64,000 nt of DNA, taken from the NCBI GenBank assembly GCA_031276725.1, contig JAISMM010000090.1:1-64000 (forward strand), read 5' to 3'. Made by a program: the position numbers and the translations under genes. This stretch comes from Clostridiales bacterium (GTDB lineage: Bacteria > Bacillota > Clostridia > Christensenellales > Pumilibacteraceae). The notes beneath the pieces were generated by a model. That model saw only the letters and a program-made list of their open reading frames with translations. It was not told the DNA's origin and made no database searches. This document shows, piece after piece, positions 12,944-23,863 of this stretch; the first letter of the stretch is position 1, and each line of letters starts with the position of its first letter.

Positions 12944-13564
12944 ATGACAGACCGTATAATTACGTTTTCGCGGCAATTCGGCAGCGGCGGCGGCGAAATC
13001 GCAAAGGAACTCGCCGCGCTTTTGGGCGTTCCTTACGTCGATAAGGCGATAATCGCCGAGGCGGCTTCCGCAAGCGGCATCGCCAAGGAATATTTTGAAA
13101 AAGCTGACGAAAGGCGCACCAACAGCTTTCTGTTTTCGCTTGTGGCGGCGTCATACGGCGGCTCCGTCGCGCCCTTGCAGCCGGGCGACATCATCACCGA
13201 CGACAAGCTGTTTATCCACGCCGCCGACGCCGTAAAAAAGCTCGCCGCGACCCCTTGCGTCATAGTGGGCCGTTGCGCTGACGATATTCTTGCCGACCGC
13301 AAGCCCGCGCGTATATTCATAAGCGCGGACTTCCCCGACAGAGTCGCGCGAATCGCAAGGCTCCGCTCCCTCGACGAAAAAGCCGCCGCCGCCCTAATCC
13401 GCAAAACCGACAAAAAACGCGCCTCTTACTACAACTTCTACACATCCAAAACGTGGGGCGCCGCCGAAAACTACGACCTCTGCCTAAACCTTTCTTCCCT
13501 CCCGAATTCCTCCGCCCTCGACCTTCTTCAATCCTTCGCAACCAATTTCATTCCCCGCGACTAG
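12944..13564 (+). CDS. cytidylate kinase-like protein
   Basis: A 206-residue P-loop protein of the cytidylate-kinase-like family (PF13189 type). The phosphate-binding loop SRQFGSGGGEIAKELA lies near the N terminus, and a VGRCADDIL block near the middle is typical of this family. A true Cmk is encoded separately at 37825, so this is not the essential CMP kinase; the substrate is unknown. The ATG at 12944 is chosen because GGGAGGA (12928-12934) sits 9 nt upstream, rather than the TTG 27 nt earlier that the open frame allows. Confidence 0.8.
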   Translation: MTDRIITFSRQFGSGGGEIAKELAALLGVPYVDKAIIAEAASASGIAKEYFEKADERRTNSFLFSLVAASYGGSVAPLQPGDIITDDKLFIHAADAVKKLAATPCVIVGRCADDILADRKPARIFISADFPDRVARIARLRSLDEKAAAALIRKTDKKRASYYNFYTSKTWGAAENYDLCLNLSSLPNSSALDLLQSFATNFIPRD

Positions 13565-13584
13565 CCGCTAAAAGGAGATTTTAT

Positions 13585-14352
13585 ATGCGTGAAAATTGGA
13601 CGTGGAACGAAACGATTTTAGCGTTTGACTTGTATTGTCGGTTGCCGAGCAAGGATGTAGTCGTCGGTAATCCCGCAATTGCGGAGCTGGCGGCAGCGCT
13701 TGGCAGAACTGCGGGTTCGGTCAAAATGAAGTTGCAAAATTTCAAGGGCTACGACCCATCATATACCTTTGACGGCAGGGTGGGACTTAGCCACGGGAGT
13801 AAAATCGACGCCGAGGTGGTTCAAGAGTTCATTGACAATTGGGACGGGCTTGTTTTACAGGCGCAAAAAATCCGCGACGAGGTGGGGTTGTCGGATGTCG
13901 AAAAAGAAGCCGACGAGCTATCGTTGCTACATATACCTTTGGAATTTAGCAAAGAAAGGATTCAAAAAGTCAGAGTGGGGCAGTCGTTTTTTAGAAAAGC
14001 GGTGCTTGCCGCCTATGATAAAAGGTGTTGTATAACGGGCATCGATATGCCGGAACTTTTGGTCGCCTCGCATATAAAGCCGTGGTCGGCGTCCAACGAT
14101 ATAGACGAAAAAGTCAATCCGCAGAACGGGCTACTGTTAAACGGTTTGCACGATTTGGCGTTCGACAAGGGCTTAATAACTATCAGTGAGGACTACAAGA
14201 TTATTCTATCGCCAAAATTGAATAATAATGCAAATAAATTATCGACGGAATTTTTCTTCAAGTATAAAAATCAACCGATAGCCCTGCCTAGCCGTTTTTT
14301 GCCCGCTAAGCAGTTTATCAAGTATCACAACGACATTGTTTTTCAAAAGTGA
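13585..14352 (+). CDS. HNH endonuclease-domain protein
   Basis: A 255-residue protein. The N-terminal part (about 1-60) contains GRTAGSVKMKLQNF, a helix-turn-helix-like segment seen at the front of several HNH restriction proteins. The C-terminal part (about 125-215) is an HNH_2-type nuclease: RCCITGI, then ASHIKPW with the first His, then NPQNGLLLNGLHDLAFD with the Asn and second His. It is therefore likely an active DNA nuclease of restriction or mobile-element type. Start ATG 13585 follows AAAGGAG. The codon choice is visibly AT-richer than its neighbours, suggesting recent acquisition. No methyltransferase partner is present. Confidence 0.85.
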   Translation: MRENWTWNETILAFDLYCRLPSKDVVVGNPAIAELAAALGRTAGSVKMKLQNFKGYDPSYTFDGRVGLSHGSKIDAEVVQEFIDNWDGLVLQAQKIRDEVGLSDVEKEADELSLLHIPLEFSKERIQKVRVGQSFFRKAVLAAYDKRCCITGIDMPELLVASHIKPWSASNDIDEKVNPQNGLLLNGLHDLAFDKGLITISEDYKIILSPKLNNNANKLSTEFFFKYKNQPIALPSRFLPAKQFIKYHNDIVFQK

Positions 14353-16597: not shown

Positions 16598-16922
16598 GCA
16601 ATTCAAAAACAATTTAAGACGGTAGCGGCAAAAGCGGATACAAAGGCTTTAATGAGCGGCCAAAGCTCATCGATGTGTAATGAGTATAGCAGGCTCGCGG
16701 CGGGAGCAAGAATACATATCAGCCGAAATTTGTAACATACGCGTACACAGTTATTTAAGTAATGTTTTTACCGTGTATCGGTTTGTCCGCGAGGGCGGGA
16801 ACGGGGAACAAAAGATTTTAGACGGCGTTGCGTTCTGTGCGCGGCGCCGTTTTTTTGTGTTGCGGAATTTTTAAATCGATAGCGATTTTTGGCTTATTGA
16901 CCGCGTTAACTGTGGTGAGCCC

Positions 16923-17058
16923 GTCCGCCGCATTCGATAATTTTCCACAATTCCCCGCCCGCCGCACTCGGCAACTTTCCAAAATTCCCCGCCCGCCGCA
17001 CTTGGCAACTTCCCACAATTCCCCGCCCGCCGCACTCGGTAACTTTCCAAAATTCCCC
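16923..17058 (+). repeat. 34-bp tandem repeat, four units
   Basis: Four head-to-tail 34-bp units start at 16923, 16957, 16991 and 17025. Each has the form GCCCGCCGCACTCGG, then AACTTTCCAAAATTCCCC, with a few substitutions. There are no spacers, so it is not CRISPR. The last unit runs on into the hairpin repeat. The 1.1 kb from 16598 to 17722 holds only repeats and no gene I can support. Confidence 0.85.
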
Positions 17059-17234
17059 TCCGGGGAGGGGTGGCACCGTAGGTGCCGGGGTGGTAAGGGT
17101 CTTTACGCTACCGCCTCTGTGAGCCGCCTACAAAAACACTCGACCACCTCGTCGCTACGCGCCACCCCTCCATAGAGGGGAATTCAAGAAATGCGCCGAG
17201 GGTGTCCGACGCGCCGTTGCGGATAAAATTCCCC
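17025..17234 (+). repeat. about 210-bp repeat, copy A
   Basis: Nearly identical to 17463-17673. It contains one hairpin repeat unit in forward orientation (stem GGCACC-GTA-GGTGCC), the spacer AAGGGTCTTTACGCTACCGC and a second unit in reverse orientation (CCACCCCTCCATAGAGGGG), ending GTTGCGGATAAAATTCCCC. Confidence 0.8.
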
Positions 17235-17244
17235 CCCCGCCGCA

Positions 17245-17312
17245 CTTGGCAACTCCTCAAAATTCCCCTCTATGGAGGGGTGGCACCGTAGGTGCCGGGG
17301 TGGTTCAATTAT
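17245..17312 (+). repeat. short-form hairpin repeat unit
   Basis: A CGCACTTGG opening, AATTCCCCTCTATGGAGGGG, the stem GGCACC-GTA-GGTGCC and the closing GGGGTGGTT, followed by an AT-rich stretch that includes an AAAACTATA/TATAGTTTT inverted repeat (about 17327-17352). Confidence 0.7.
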
Positions 17313-17399
17313 TAAGTGATAGCCAATAAAAAACTATACATTAATATATAGTTTTATCAAGCTGCGGTTCAGTTATCGGTAATTTAGCCGCAGATATTT

Positions 17400-17435
17400 G
17401 GTAGGGAAAGTAGGGATTTCCCTACTTTCCCTACC
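17400..17435. repeat. 36-bp palindrome, copy 1
   Basis: GGTAGGGAAAGTAGGG, a central AT pair mismatch and the inverted copy. It is nearly identical to the palindrome at 63041-63076. Neither strand has a T-tract next to it, so it is not a standard terminator. Confidence 0.8.
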
Positions 17436-17462
17436 AAAAAAAGACTTAAAGTGTATTTATTC

Positions 17463-17673
17463 GCCCGCCGCATTCGGTAACTTTCCAAAATTCCCCTCCG
17501 GGGAGGGGTGCCGCCGTACGGCGGCGGGGTGGTAAGGGTCTTTACGCTACCGCCTCTATGAGCCGCCTACAAAAGCACTCGACCACCCCGTCGCTACGCG
17601 CCGCCCCTCCATAGAGGGGAATTCAAGAAATGCGCCGAGGGTGTCCGACGAGCCGTTGCGGATAAAATTCCCC
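17463..17673 (+). repeat. about 210-bp repeat, copy B
   Basis: A direct duplicate of 17025-17234 except at the hairpin, where the stem is CCGCCG-TA-CGGCGG instead of GGCACC-GTA-GGTGCC, plus a few point changes. Confidence 0.8.
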
Positions 17674-17722
17674 GCCCGCCGCGCCGCCGCCGCGCCGCTA
17701 TAAAGATTTACCCGCAATAACG

Positions 17723-17751
17723 TTGACAAAACCTATATATGGGTATATAAT
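17723..17751 (+). promoter_or_regulatory. perfect-consensus promoter of the retron
   Basis: TTGACA (17723-17728), a 17-nt spacer and TATAAT (17746-17751). The predicted transcription start (about 17758) coincides with the first base of the a1 arm of the retron RNA. Confidence 0.9.
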
Positions 17752-17757
17752 AGAGGT

Positions 17758-17880
17758 ACGGTTTTCGGAATCGTCCCTAATCGGGCAAGCTCCGTGTAAG
17801 CGGAGACGTCAAAACAAAAGCGCTTGAAAATATTTTCCGCCGTTGCTTCGCCACGGCAGAAAACATTTTGCGGAAACCGT
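17758..17880 (+). ncRNA. candidate retron msr-msd RNA
   Basis: About 123 nt between a strong promoter and a retron reverse transcriptase. Visible structure, in order: an a1 arm ACGGTTTTCG (17758-17767); a small hairpin CTCCG-TGTAAG-CGGAG (17790-17805) preceded by a weaker CCC/GGG one; a 17-bp msd-like stem pairing 17827-17843 with 17853-17869 (15 of 17 pairs) around a 9-nt loop; then directly the a2 arm CGGAAACCGT (17871-17880), which pairs with a1 over 10 bp with one G-U. This order matches known retron RNAs. The priming guanosine and exact ends are not determined, and no homologous RNA was compared. Confidence 0.75.
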
Positions 17881-17994: not shown

Positions 17995-19257
17995 GTGATT
18001 TGCGCCGCAGAGAATAACATCGGACCGATAATGTTAGTAGTTTTTTTTAACCTCATTATTCTTGTCGTCGGCGCTATTATTTTTTTTCTTATCGTCGGTG
18101 CCGCCATGGACAAGCGCGCAAAGCGTCGCGCGGACAAAAAAAACTATTCGCGCTACCCCGGGGATCCGCAAGCGGAGTCTCCGAATTTTGGCTTTGCAAA
18201 AGCCCCCGAGCCGAGGGTGCGGCACGCGGTTTTTAAGCCCGTCCCCAAAACGCGCAAAAAGCGCGGATCGCTAACGAATAAGGACGCGGCGATGACGGCG
18301 ATAAAAAAAAGGCTCGACTCTCCGCGAATCGTCGCCGCGTCGCCGCGCTCCGTCGTTTCGGAAGCGGAAATCCGCGCCGTGCTTGACAAACACGAGGGAC
18401 TTTTTTGCGCGGGCGTTTGCGACGCCCAATACGCCGAACACACCGTCAAAAAGAAGAACGGCGGCACGCGCTTGATTTGCGCGCCGTCCGCCGGGCTTTT
18501 GTCGCTCCAAAATTCGCTTTTACACATATTTATACGTTTCCCGGTGTCGGAGGCGGCGAGCGGCTTCGAAAAAGGCTGCTCGATACTCGACAACGCCGCG
18601 CGGCATCGCGGCGCCGCCCATATGCTGCAAACCGACATAGAGAATTTTTTTCCGTCCGTAACCAAAAGAATGTTTATCGACACGTTTTGCCCGAATCTTT
18701 ACCGCGCCACGGCGGAAAAATTTTGGGCGGCGGTTTCGTATAAGGGCGGACTTCCGATAGGCGGCCCCTGCTCGCCGTTCATCGCAAACCGCGTGTTGCT
18801 GCCGCTCGACAACCGAATCGCCGCGATTTGCGCCTACGACAAAATCACGTACAGCCGCTACGCCGACGACCTTACCTTTACGTCGGATTCCTACATCACT
18901 CCCGGCTTTTTGGTCTCGGTCGAAAACGCCGTCAGGGACTTCGGGTTCAAATTGAACTACGGCAAAACGCGCTTTACGGCGAGTCGGTTCCACATAACGG
19001 GCATAAACGTCCACAACAAAAAGAGCGTCGGGGGAGGCGCTCGCGCGGAATTTACGCCGGGCGCAAGGTACAAGAGCAAGCTGCGGCGCGAAATCTATAA
19101 CTATTTGGTCAAGAACGACGGTAGCGGCGGCCGCATAGGCGGCAAGCTATCGTATCTTGCCCAAATAGAGCCCGAAGCCGCCCGCGCTATTCGTGAAAAG
19201 TATTCGCGGTACGACAAGCGCAACTTTTTCAAAATTTTAGGAAAAGCCGATAAATAG
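17995..19257 (+). CDS. retron-type reverse transcriptase with N-terminal membrane segment
   Basis: A 420-residue reverse transcriptase. It should copy the adjacent structured RNA into multicopy single-stranded DNA. Core motifs are complete: LQTDIENFFPSV with catalytic Asp 214, GLPIGGPCSPFIANRV (252-267), and YADD at 289-292. Two retron hallmarks are visible: NAARH (200-204, the NAxxH motif) and ITG at 334-336 (the VTG position). There is no maturase or endonuclease domain, which argues against a group II intron. Unusually, residues about 13-37 are a strong hydrophobic segment followed by a basic run, predicting a membrane anchor ahead of a 60-residue basic linker. Start GTG 17995 follows AAAGGAGA (17976-17983); ATG 18031 is an alternative that keeps the anchor. 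Confidence 0.92.
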   Translation: MICAAENNIGPIMLVVFFNLIILVVGAIIFFLIVGAAMDKRAKRRADKKNYSRYPGDPQAESPNFGFAKAPEPRVRHAVFKPVPKTRKKRGSLTNKDAAMTAIKKRLDSPRIVAASPRSVVSEAEIRAVLDKHEGLFCAGVCDAQYAEHTVKKKNGGTRLICAPSAGLLSLQNSLLHIFIRFPVSEAASGFEKGCSILDNAARHRGAAHMLQTDIENFFPSVTKRMFIDTFCPNLYRATAEKFWAAVSYKGGLPIGGPCSPFIANRVLLPLDNRIAAICAYDKITYSRYADDLTFTSDSYITPGFLVSVENAVRDFGFKLNYGKTRFTASRFHITGINVHNKKSVGGGARAEFTPGARYKSKLRREIYNYLVKNDGSGGRIGGKLSYLAQIEPEAARAIREKYSRYDKRNFFKILGKADK

Positions 19258-19277: not shown

Positions 19278-22200
19278 ATGAAACTTTACGACGAACTGAT
19301 AAAAATACGCGACGAATTAAGGGTGCTGTTTTTTGATAAAAAGACGAACCGCGCCCCGACCGTCTGCAACGACGCCGCGCTTGCCGAGCTTGCCAAAAAA
19401 GCGCCGCGCACGGCGGAGGAATTCGCCTATATAAACGGTTGCGGGCGCGTGTTCGCCGAAAGGTACGCCGCGTATTTTTTGCCCGCGCTCGACCGTTTTC
19501 ACGCGCAAAACGACGCCAAAAAAATTATGTCGCCGGCAGTTTTTAAGACGCTCAAAAATTTTGAAAAGCGGCTTGTGGGCATAAACCAAAAAAACCGCCT
19601 GTTATTCCTGAACCGCCTCTACAAAAAAAATTCGTTCGACCTTAATACCGGCGTCGGCGCGTCCGTCGTCGATTTTCTGCTGTCTAAGCAGCGGCGCGGC
19701 GCGTACAAAATTTGTCCGTTCCCGCGCGGCGGCGACGCCCCCGAGCAAAAAGCCGAAACGGCGGTTTACGAACACGTCCGCACTCTCGCGCGCGAGGCGG
19801 CAAGATCGGAGCGCGAAAGCGGCATAGCCGAACTTTACGTGGGGTATCCGTTCGTTTTGGGACGCGTCGAGGCGGAGGACTTCGACCTTCGCGCCCCGCT
19901 CGCCCTGTTCCCCGTAACGGCGGCGGTCAACGAAAAAGGCGCGTTTTTAAGCCTCGACGGCGAGCGCGACGTTCTTTATAACTCCAACCTAATATTTTCG
20001 TACTACAAATTCAACGGCATCCGCCGCGAGCCGCCGTACTGCGCCGTCGAGGAAATCGAAAAGGACTTTATAGGTCAAATCAAGAGCTTCTACGAATCGG
20101 CGGGCATCAAAATCGAGGGCGAAGCCTCGCCGCCCCAAAAATTCGCGCCGCTCGAAAAAAGCGAATTCAAAAAGCTGAACGGCAAATTCACAATTTTGCA
20201 TAACGCTGTTTTGGGAACATTTTCGCTTTATTCGAGCGCGCTCCAAAAGGACTACAAAAATATCTTGGAGGGCGGCGGCGTAAACGCGCTCGCCGACGCT
20301 CTTCTTAACCCCGACGCCGCGCCCGCTCCCGCCCCCGACCCGCCCGCCGCCGTCGACGAGCGCGCGATCACCTATGTGAACGAGCTCAACGCCTCGCAGG
20401 AGTCGCTCATAGCCGCCGTAAGCTCGCACGGGGGGATAGTTTTGCACGGGCCGCCCGGCACGGGCAAGTCGCAAACGATAGTCAGCGCGATAGCCGACAT
20501 AGCCGTTCGCGGCGGCAACGTTTTAATGGTTTCGCAAAAACGCGCCGCCCTCGACGTCATACATTCGCGGCTGGGGGAGCTGTCAAAATACGCGCTGTTC
20601 ATTCCCGATTCGCTCGATAAAGACTTCTTTTACGGTCAAATTAAAACGATTTTTTCCCTCGCCCAAAATGAGGAAAAAACGCCCGCTTTGCCGTTCGTCC
20701 CTTCGATTGCCGCCGCCGCGCCGCCGTCGGCGTCCGTTTTAAGCGTCCCCGCGCCGCCGGTAAGCCCCGAGGGGGTAGGGAACGGGGGAGTACCCGCCGA
20801 CGGATTTTCGCTCGTGGCGGATGCGGTCAACTCGGCGCTCGCTCGGCTCGACGCGGGCGCGGCGGCCATAAAAAACGGCGGACTTTGCCGCATATACGAG
20901 GAGAACCCGCAAAATATTTTCTTTGCCGATCCCGCCGCTTTCCCCGACGAATACGCCGCCCTTACGGGTACGGCGGCCGCCCTTAATTACGACGGTTTGC
21001 GCGCCTGCGCCGCCGCTTTTACGGGTAACAAAGCCGCCGACGCGGAACTGTTTTTGACGCTGCGCGAACGCTATCCGTGGCTGGCCTCGCTAAAAACGCT
21101 TACGGGAACGGAACTTATAAGCGCCAAAAATTACGCCGAAACGTTTCCGACGCGCAAAAGCGCCGCCGCCGCCCTGCCGTTTTTCAAGCGGCTGTCCGCG
21201 CTTTTTAAGCTCAAAAAGGACATAAAAAAATTCGCCAAAAAGAATTTTTCTATGAAAGGCGCGGCAAAAATCTTTTACGCCGAGCCCTCCGCGCCCGCCG
21301 AAAGCCTCGATAATTTTAGCGAATATCACCGCGCGTCCAAGGAATTTTTCGCCCTCGCGCCGGAGCAAAGGGGTTACGCCGAAAGCGTTTACAGCTACTG
21401 CCGCGCACGGCAAAGGAGCTTTTCGGAATCGTTGCCGCTCGTCTACGACTGCGCCGTTTTCGCGCTCGCGTCCGATATCGAGCATACTTTGCGCGACCAT
21501 ATCGCTTGCTTTAACGCCGCTCCCGCCGCCGTCGACGCCGTGAACGAACAGTTCAAAATCAAGCGGAATTTAACGCGGGACGCCGCCGCCGCCGCACTAT
21601 GCGCCGCCCTTAACGAGCACGTATTCACGTCCAAACGCTTTTTAGAAATGCGCCGTAAATTAGAGAGCAAGCGCCGCCAATCGATCGCCGCGTTCGTCAA
21701 AAATTTTGAATTCGAGCTTACTAAGGGCGTCCGCGTTTGGCTTTTAACGCCCGAAACGGTGTCCGAGCTTTTGCCGCTCACGCCGGGGCTGTTCGACGTG
21801 GTGATATTCGACGAGGCGTCGCAACTATACGTCGAAAACGGTATCCCGTCGGTTTTACGCGCCGACGGGTGCGTCGTTGCGGGCGACCACAAGCAGCTGC
21901 GGCCGTCGAATTTGGGGTTCGGGCGCGGCGGCGGCGACGAGGAATTCGAGGACGGCGAGGAGTCGGATGCGGCGGTCGAGGAGGAGAGCCTTCTGGATTT
22001 GGCGCGCTTTAAGCTAAAAAGCGTCCTCTTGAATTTCCATTACCGTTCCAAATACGACGAGCTTATCGCGTTTTCAAACCGCGCGTTTTACGACGGCGGA
22101 CTTTGCGCGCTGCCCTCGCCGAGCCCCTCCGCCGAACCGCCCATATCGGTCGTCTACGACCCTAGCGGCGTTTGGGAATCGCGGCGCAACCTATGCGAGG

Positions 22201-23051
22201 CCAAGGCGGTTTTGCGCGTTATCCGCGACTTTCTGTACGGGAACGCGGAGCGCAAAACTATGGGCGTCATCACGTTTAACTCCGCCCAGCGCGACCTTAT
22301 CGAGGACTTGCTCGACGCCGAAAAAGCCGCCGACCCCGATTTTGCCGCGCGCCTTAACGCCGAATTTTCGCGAAAATCCCGGGGCGAGGACGTCGGACTT
22401 TTCGTCAAAAATATCGAAAACGTTCAGGGCGACGAGCGCGATATAATAGTTTTTTCGCTCGCCTACGCCCGCGACGAAAGCGGCAAAATTCCGCGCCAAT
22501 ACGGTTGGCTCAGCCAAAGCGGCGGCGAAAACCGCCTCAACGTGGGAATCTCGCGCGCCAAGGAAAAGATTATAATCGTCGCGTCCGTCCGCAGCGGCGA
22601 ACTTAAAACCGACGACCTAAAAAACGACGGCCCCAAGCTGTTCAAAAAATATTTGGAATACGCCGAATACATTTCGCGCGGCGACGTCCAAAACGCCGAA
22701 AAACTGCTCGCCGCGCTTTACCAAAAGGGCGGGCCGTTAGAGTCCGATGCCTCCGTTTGCGCCAAGGAGCTTGCCGCCGCCCTAACTGCGAAAGGCTGCC
22801 GCGTCGAGCAAAATTACGGCGTCGCGGGCTTCCCCATCGAGCTTTGCGCCTCTCTTAACGGCAAAACCGTCGGCGTCGAATTCGACAAAACCGCCCTCGA
22901 TTCATTCACCTGCGCCCGCCGTTTCGTCCACCGCTCAAACTTCTTAAAGCTCCGCGGCTGGAACCTTCTGACCTTCACCGCCTCGGATTGGCGCCGCTCC
23001 CCCGACCGTGTTTTATCCGCAATCGAAAGCCGCCTAAACGCGGACAAGTAG
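19278..23051 (+). CDS. HRDC-SF1 helicase-nuclease fusion, candidate retron effector
   Basis: A 1257-residue protein starting 20 nt after the RT gene, with no clear ribosome binding site, so probably coupled to it. Domain order: HRDC-like helical domain (about 28-72); a less conserved region; SF1 helicase of the AAA_11/AAA_12 type with Walker A GPPGTGKS (391-398), then a long helical insertion, Walker B VVIFDEASQ (841-849), motif III AGDHKQLRPS (868-877), motif V ENVQGDERDII and motif VI NVGISRAKEKI (1088-1098). Residues about 1155-1250 resemble the MTES_1575-type restriction endonuclease fold, with IEL (1187-1189), GVEFDK (1199-1204) and a closing SDW-RRSP. Nicking or degrading DNA when the retron is disturbed is my inference; no experiment is known to me. 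Confidence 0.85.
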   Translation: MKLYDELIKIRDELRVLFFDKKTNRAPTVCNDAALAELAKKAPRTAEEFAYINGCGRVFAERYAAYFLPALDRFHAQNDAKKIMSPAVFKTLKNFEKRLVGINQKNRLLFLNRLYKKNSFDLNTGVGASVVDFLLSKQRRGAYKICPFPRGGDAPEQKAETAVYEHVRTLAREAARSERESGIAELYVGYPFVLGRVEAEDFDLRAPLALFPVTAAVNEKGAFLSLDGERDVLYNSNLIFSYYKFNGIRREPPYCAVEEIEKDFIGQIKSFYESAGIKIEGEASPPQKFAPLEKSEFKKLNGKFTILHNAVLGTFSLYSSALQKDYKNILEGGGVNALADALLNPDAAPAPAPDPPAAVDERAITYVNELNASQESLIAAVSSHGGIVLHGPPGTGKSQTIVSAIADIAVRGGNVLMVSQKRAALDVIHSRLGELSKYALFIPDSLDKDFFYGQIKTIFSLAQNEEKTPALPFVPSIAAAAPPSASVLSVPAPPVSPEGVGNGGVPADGFSLVADAVNSALARLDAGAAAIKNGGLCRIYEENPQNIFFADPAAFPDEYAALTGTAAALNYDGLRACAAAFTGNKAADAELFLTLRERYPWLASLKTLTGTELISAKNYAETFPTRKSAAAALPFFKRLSALFKLKKDIKKFAKKNFSMKGAAKIFYAEPSAPAESLDNFSEYHRASKEFFALAPEQRGYAESVYSYCRARQRSFSESLPLVYDCAVFALASDIEHTLRDHIACFNAAPAAVDAVNEQFKIKRNLTRDAAAAALCAALNEHVFTSKRFLEMRRKLESKRRQSIAAFVKNFEFELTKGVRVWLLTPETVSELLPLTPGLFDVVIFDEASQLYVENGIPSVLRADGCVVAGDHKQLRPSNLGFGRGGGDEEFEDGEESDAAVEEESLLDLARFKLKSVLLNFHYRSKYDELIAFSNRAFYDGGLCALPSPSPSAEPPISVVYDPSGVWESRRNLCEAKAVLRVIRDFLYGNAERKTMGVITFNSAQRDLIEDLLDAEKAADPDFAARLNAEFSRKSRGEDVGLFVKNIENVQGDERDIIVFSLAYARDESGKIPRQYGWLSQSGGENRLNVGISRAKEKIIIVASVRSGELKTDDLKNDGPKLFKKYLEYAEYISRGDVQNAEKLLAALYQKGGPLESDASVCAKELAAALTAKGCRVEQNYGVAGFPIELCASLNGKTVGVEFDKTALDSFTCARRFVHRSNFLKLRGWNLLTFTASDWRRSPDRVLSAIESRLNADK

Positions 23052-23281: not shown

Positions 23282-23338
23282 CCGCCAAATAATCGAACCA
23301 CCCCGCCGCTACGCGCCACCCCTCCATAGAGGGGAATT
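23282..23338 (-). repeat. hairpin repeat unit, reverse orientation
   Basis: ACCACCCCGCCGCTACGCGC, then CACCCCTCCATAGAGGGG and AATT: the reverse complement of the short-form intergenic repeat. Confidence 0.7.
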
Positions 23339-23388
23339 TTTGAGATATGTCGATTGCGGCGGACGGGCAATTCTTTACTCAACGGCTC

Positions 23389-23607
23389 GCCCGCCGCACT
23401 TGGAGCGTCTTTTGAATTCCCCTCCGGGGCGGGGTGATTGCTCGCCCGCCGCACTCGGAGCGTCTTTTGAATTCCCCTCCGGGGCGGGGTGATTGCTCGC
23501 CCGCCGCACTCGGAGCGTCTCTTGAATTCCCCTCCGGGCGGGGTGATTGCTTGCCCGCCGCACTCGGAGCGTCTCTTGAATTCCCCTCCGGGGAGGGGTG
23601 CCGCGTA
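23389..23607 (+). repeat. 55-bp tandem repeat, four units
   Basis: Units begin at 23389, 23444, 23499 and 23553. Each has the form GCCCGCCGCACTCGGAGCGT, then a CTTTTGAATTCCCCTCCGGG block and CGGGGTGATTGCT. The third unit has lost one G, and the last leads into a complete hairpin repeat (GGAGGGGTG-CCGC-GTA-GCGG-CGGGGTGGTT). A long-form unit follows at about 23640-23755, ending at GGGGTAGTTTAACTGTTAAG. There is no gene between 23190 and 23863. Confidence 0.85.
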
Positions 23608-23863
23608 GCGGCGGGGTGGTTGTCCGCCGCTCTCGGCATATCCCCCAAATTCCCCTCCGGGGAGTGCCTCGCCTTATTGACGGGCTTAGCCCGCACGCCC
23701 TACAAACGGCTTCGCCGTTTGACGGCTCGGTTCACGGCGCATTCGCCGACGGGGTAGTTTAACTGTTAAGCGGTAGCCAAACAAAAACCTACGTATTAAA
23801 GCAAAGCTTTTTTAAGCGGTCATAAGAATTATCCGCCTAAAAAAACTAAAAATACCGGCGAAT

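Follow-up and report, generated by a model that had tools for sequence, protein, structure and literature searches.

The window (64,000 nucleotides, positions 1 to 64,000 of contig JAISMM010000090.1 from a Clostridiales bacterium) carries a promoter, a structured RNA, a reverse transcriptase (RT) gene and a helicase-nuclease gene in succession on its forward strand:

17723..17751, + strand, sigma-70-type promoter, TTGACA-17-TATAAT, 12/12 matches to consensus
17758..17767, + strand, a1 arm, ACGGTTTTCG, 10 pairs with a2
17768, + strand, candidate priming (branch) guanosine, first base past a1
17773..17786, + strand, msr hairpin SL1, stem 17773-17776/17783-17786, from the fold and double changes
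17790..17805, + strand, msr hairpin SL2 with a GUAA loop, stem 17790-17795/17800-17805, from the fold and double changes
17827..17869, + strand, msd stem-loop, predicted template for reverse transcription, stem 17827-17843/17853-17869
17871..17880, + strand, a2 arm, CGGAAACCGT, pairs with a1
17995..19257, + strand, retron RT, 420 aa, with an N-terminal transmembrane helix at about 10-50, a disordered linker and an RT domain at about 143-405
19278..23051, + strand, helicase-nuclease with HRDC, DUF4011, AAA_11/12 and MTES_1575 domains, a possible partner

Retrons are bacterial elements that produce small RNA-linked DNA, usually in antiviral defence, and an earlier note had read 17758-17880 as the msr-msd RNA of such an element. 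The described geometry is confirmed, with two corrections to the msd stem. The promoter puts the expected +1 at about 17758, which agrees with the claim that transcription starts on a1. The a1 and a2 arms form 10 pairs, one of them G-U, and the small msr hairpins said to lie between a1 and the msd are indeed two in number (17773-17786 and 17790-17805). The msd stem had been described as a 17-position stem that abuts a2 exactly. It occurs in both the minimum free energy (MFE) and centroid structures, but 15 of its 17 positions are paired, with two 1x1 mismatches, and a single nucleotide, G17870, intervenes before a2. Folding of the whole segment, which the note had proposed as a check, returns the claimed structure with an MFE of -42.0 kcal/mol, compared with -31.5 +/- 3.5 for dinucleotide shuffles (z -3.0; 0 of 200 shuffles as good). 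A 10-bp arm pair arises anywhere in this 300-nt region in 17% of shuffles, and starts at the promoter +1 in 0.5%. Rfam, searched at gathering and permissive thresholds, holds no relevant family for the window RNA. Taken by itself, the window sequence is suggestive, moderate evidence for a retron RNA.

The RT gene provides a second line of evidence. Its product carries the motifs YADD, NAARH and ITG, and the clade to which it belongs has NAxxH, with VTG in most members. NAxxH (region X) and VTG (region Y) are retron-specific RT motifs, and the V-to-I change in VTG is also found in Vc81 (PMC6868368). PADLOC RT_II-A is the best profile for the window RT (E 2.7e-52), the NCBIfam model retron_St85_RT scores 195.4 bits, below its 235-bit cut-off, and PADLOC RT_Ec107-like also matches 6/6 clade members scanned but is not their best profile. 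In the AlphaFold prediction (mean pLDDT 80), the helix at 10-50 and the disordered linker precede an RT fold that Foldseek places closest to retron-Eco7, Ec86 and Ec78. By motif, profile and modelled fold, the window protein is a retron RT. It falls in a seven-member clade (support 95/93) near Clostridia type II-A RTs, and the nearest RTs outside the clade (L237, L261 and L262) are type II-A with NDT_II-A neighbour genes.

The transmembrane segment and disordered linker fused to the RT (encoded by 17995-18291) are absent from all homologues seen. In coding signal, this N-terminal part resembles the remainder of the gene. The codon signal favours GTG 17995 over an alternative start with a good ribosome-binding site at ATG 18292; translation from both is possible.

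Homologues of the RT were picked by protein search alone, and the RNA played no part in their selection. Four of these loci (G032, G153, G139 and G423), with RTs 34-40% identical, have a homologous RNA directly upstream. The expected order of parts, as first described for the window, is common to all five: GGTTTYCGGAAY is followed by one hairpin, by another whose loop is GUAA and by a long hairpin that varies, and TTTGCGGAAACC comes last. The homologous RNAs are more stable than shuffles, with z from -3.4 to -8.6, and sigma-70-like promoters that match 10-12 of 12 consensus positions end 5-7 nt ahead of a1 at 5/5 loci. The distance from the RNA to the RT start ranges from 11 to 303 nt among the homologues. 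The paired arms are kept at these four loci, but not at G012, a clade member with complete upstream sequence and no recognisable RNA copy. Two other strong inverted repeats lie upstream of the G012 RT (L238:4124-4346). In G170 the upstream region is cut at the contig end.

The five RNAs also permit the comparison of paired positions that the earlier note had named as support. With pairing columns taken from a sequence-only alignment, later realigned, 95.8% of cells in a1/a2, SL1 and SL2 are paired, and pairing falls to 37-51% when the partner is slid by 1-3 columns. Compensatory double changes occur in 11/19 pairs, a count matched by 0/500 shuffles, and they support each of the three elements (5/10 pairs in a1/a2, 2/3 counted pairs in SL1 and 4/6 in SL2). 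Sequence is conserved in the msr (identity 0.70 versus 0.48 shuffled) and not conserved in the msd (0.50 versus 0.46 shuffled), despite which each homologue keeps a long hairpin adjoining a2. The GAA at 17768-17770 is invariant across the five. Its G17768 sits at the inner end of a1, the position described for the priming G of retrons (PMC6868368), in the context CGGA in the window and TAGA in G139, where the usual retron context is TAGC. Because a homologous RNA lies beside four other RTs, the remaining doubt over the fold is removed; the comparative data are the decisive support, and the first reading of a retron RNA is supported by them.

A covariance model of the RNA, scanned against 396 genomes of the order and a focused set of 11, scores 80-115 bits at the five RT-adjacent loci only, the next best score in the sampled genomes being 25.8 bits. 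The model was trained on the same five RNAs that it recovers, so those matches are expected, and it is the lack of any further match that carries information. Searches of mobile elements added nothing: blastn with the RNA as query matched no phage or plasmid, the RT as a single-protein query found no relative in viral contigs, and msr motif scans of viral contigs found none. Two hits to a looser msr pattern in viral contigs (L267 and L268) fall within a phage gene and were dismissed as chance. Genome searches at family level, centred on G153 and G139, yielded no added clade member, and a class-level search returned II-A-like and more distant RTs only.

The neighbourhoods of the seven clade members are all different. 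Adjacent genes encode the helicase-nuclease, a polysaccharide flippase-like protein, a dCMP deaminase, a DUF6483 protein, a NUDIX protein and a methyltransferase, or lie on the opposite strand. As no neighbour gene common to the seven members was found, no dedicated effector is evident. An NDT gene beside the RT is absent in the window and the clade, and no PtuA ATPase and HNH pair adjoins the window RT. An HNH endonuclease gene (13453-14349) that matches PADLOC HNH and restriction-enzyme models (E 7.6e-81) lies upstream of the RNA at a distance of 3.4 kb, and no ATPase match came from the ORFs scanned between the two. Dispersed GC-rich repeats, partly inverted, flank the RNA-RT-helicase stretch at 16920-17682 and 23287-23620 and recur in the window at 10.8-11.0, 59.1-59.2 and 62.6-63.1 kb.

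The helicase-nuclease starts 20 bp past the RT gene on the same strand and is probably co-transcribed with it. The protein is about 1250 aa long, with HRDC near its N-terminus, and is ~40% identical to a same-genus copy. It resembles Hhe/ProA but scores below their cut-offs. An explanation that shares our reading of the RNA, and differs in the effector, is a three-part retron in which a membrane-tethered RT, in complex with msDNA, would hold the helicase-nuclease inactive until a phage disturbs the msDNA and so frees it. The short same-strand gap and the likeness to anti-phage Hhe/ProA proteins fit this explanation, as do related Hhe-like helicases encoded ~1 kb away from a retron RT in each of Bacteroides sp. 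GM023 (L054:8888-11974) and Apibacter muscae (L066:8526-11669) and reports of effector swaps between retron types (PMC12548924). However, the helicase gene lies beside the RT in 0 of the six other clade members, its relatives occur in 196/396 genomes of the order, mostly without this RT and in unrelated contexts, and the Bacteroides and Apibacter helicases are on the strand opposite to the RT. In Retron-Sda1, moreover, an adjacent defence gene pair worked without RT or RNA, a precedent for independence of such neighbours (PMC12548924). We consider a three-part system unlikely. A conserved helicase effector for the clade was rejected, as the adjacency is seen in the window only, and for the same reason the helicase stays a putative effector even there. 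In the literature covered, a pairing of an msDNA sensor with a helicase-nuclease is recorded for no retron type. That a membrane-anchored RT has an Hhe/ProA-like helicase-nuclease as its effector, in a lineage otherwise without a dedicated effector gene, seems quite doubtful.

The RNA does sit in the 5' leader of the RT gene, and might instead serve the RT mRNA as a structured leader or attenuator without ever being reverse transcribed. This is highly improbable. The outer arms, msr-like hairpins and a sequence-free hairpin by a2 make up the published retron architecture (PMC6868368), the RT has retron-specific motifs, and the varying distance to the RT start (11 to 303 nt) is unlike that of a translational attenuator. 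That the inverted repeats arose by chance, in an intergenic region rich in GC and full of repeats, has next to no probability and is refuted by the comparative data: 17% of region shuffles hold a 10-bp arm pair and dispersed repeats lie nearby (16.9-17.7 kb), but order and compensatory changes are kept in four distant loci and the covariance model finds nothing comparable elsewhere.

So, is the locus a retron? Among the criteria for a retron is msDNA with a 2'-5' linkage, and for its defence form a dedicated effector in the operon. By every feature decidable here it is a retron, and 17758-17880 is almost certainly the msr-msd template RNA that serves the RT at 17995-19257. The transcript would begin at a1, and the a1/a2 stem would set G17768 beside the start of the template. 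The RT would then bind the msr hairpins, prime from the 2'-OH of G17768 and copy the msd from about 17870 back towards 17810-17825, while host RNase H would remove the template RNA. The expected product, an msDNA of about 50-60 nt able to form a hairpin, would stay in complex with the RT. These steps follow established retron biology (PMC6868368, PMC8989520). Given that no effector gene is conserved in the lineage, RT and msDNA probably work as a two-part module or rely on an effector whose gene lies elsewhere.

Among known systems, type II-A retrons (Ec86/Eco1-like, RT plus NDT effector) share the best RT profile and the general msr-msd plan, and the nearest outside RTs belong to them. Unlike these, the clade lacks an NDT gene and has its own RNA family, and the window RT has a transmembrane extension and the CGGA context. 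The RT is also similar to those of type I-A/St85-Ec78 retrons (RT plus PtuA/PtuB), both in its St85 score of 195 bits and in the Foldseek matches to Eco7/Ec78, but it lies below the family cut-off and has no adjoining ATPase/HNH pair. A similar case is Ec107, a retron without an apparent effector gene. In Retron-Bth1, too, RT and msr-msd stand without an obvious partner gene (PMC12548924). The present lineage differs from such retrons in RT clade and host phylum, and in the window a helicase-nuclease lies directly downstream. What sets the lineage apart is that it lacks the effector of type II-A and has an RNA family of its own, and that the window copy bears a transmembrane extension, whereas the RNA architecture follows the ordinary retron plan. 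The newness of the RT lineage is judged on partial literature, and it may have been listed earlier.

The lineage is unusual because it has no conserved partner toxin gene. It adds to the retrons of Clostridia an RT clade and an RNA family absent from Rfam, and is a natural case in which an RT and its msr-msd have been kept together over long divergence with no shared effector gene. This makes it testable whether RT-msDNA functions alone or borrows effectors. With its msr conserved and its msd free to change, the RNA also shows which of its parts the RT requires.
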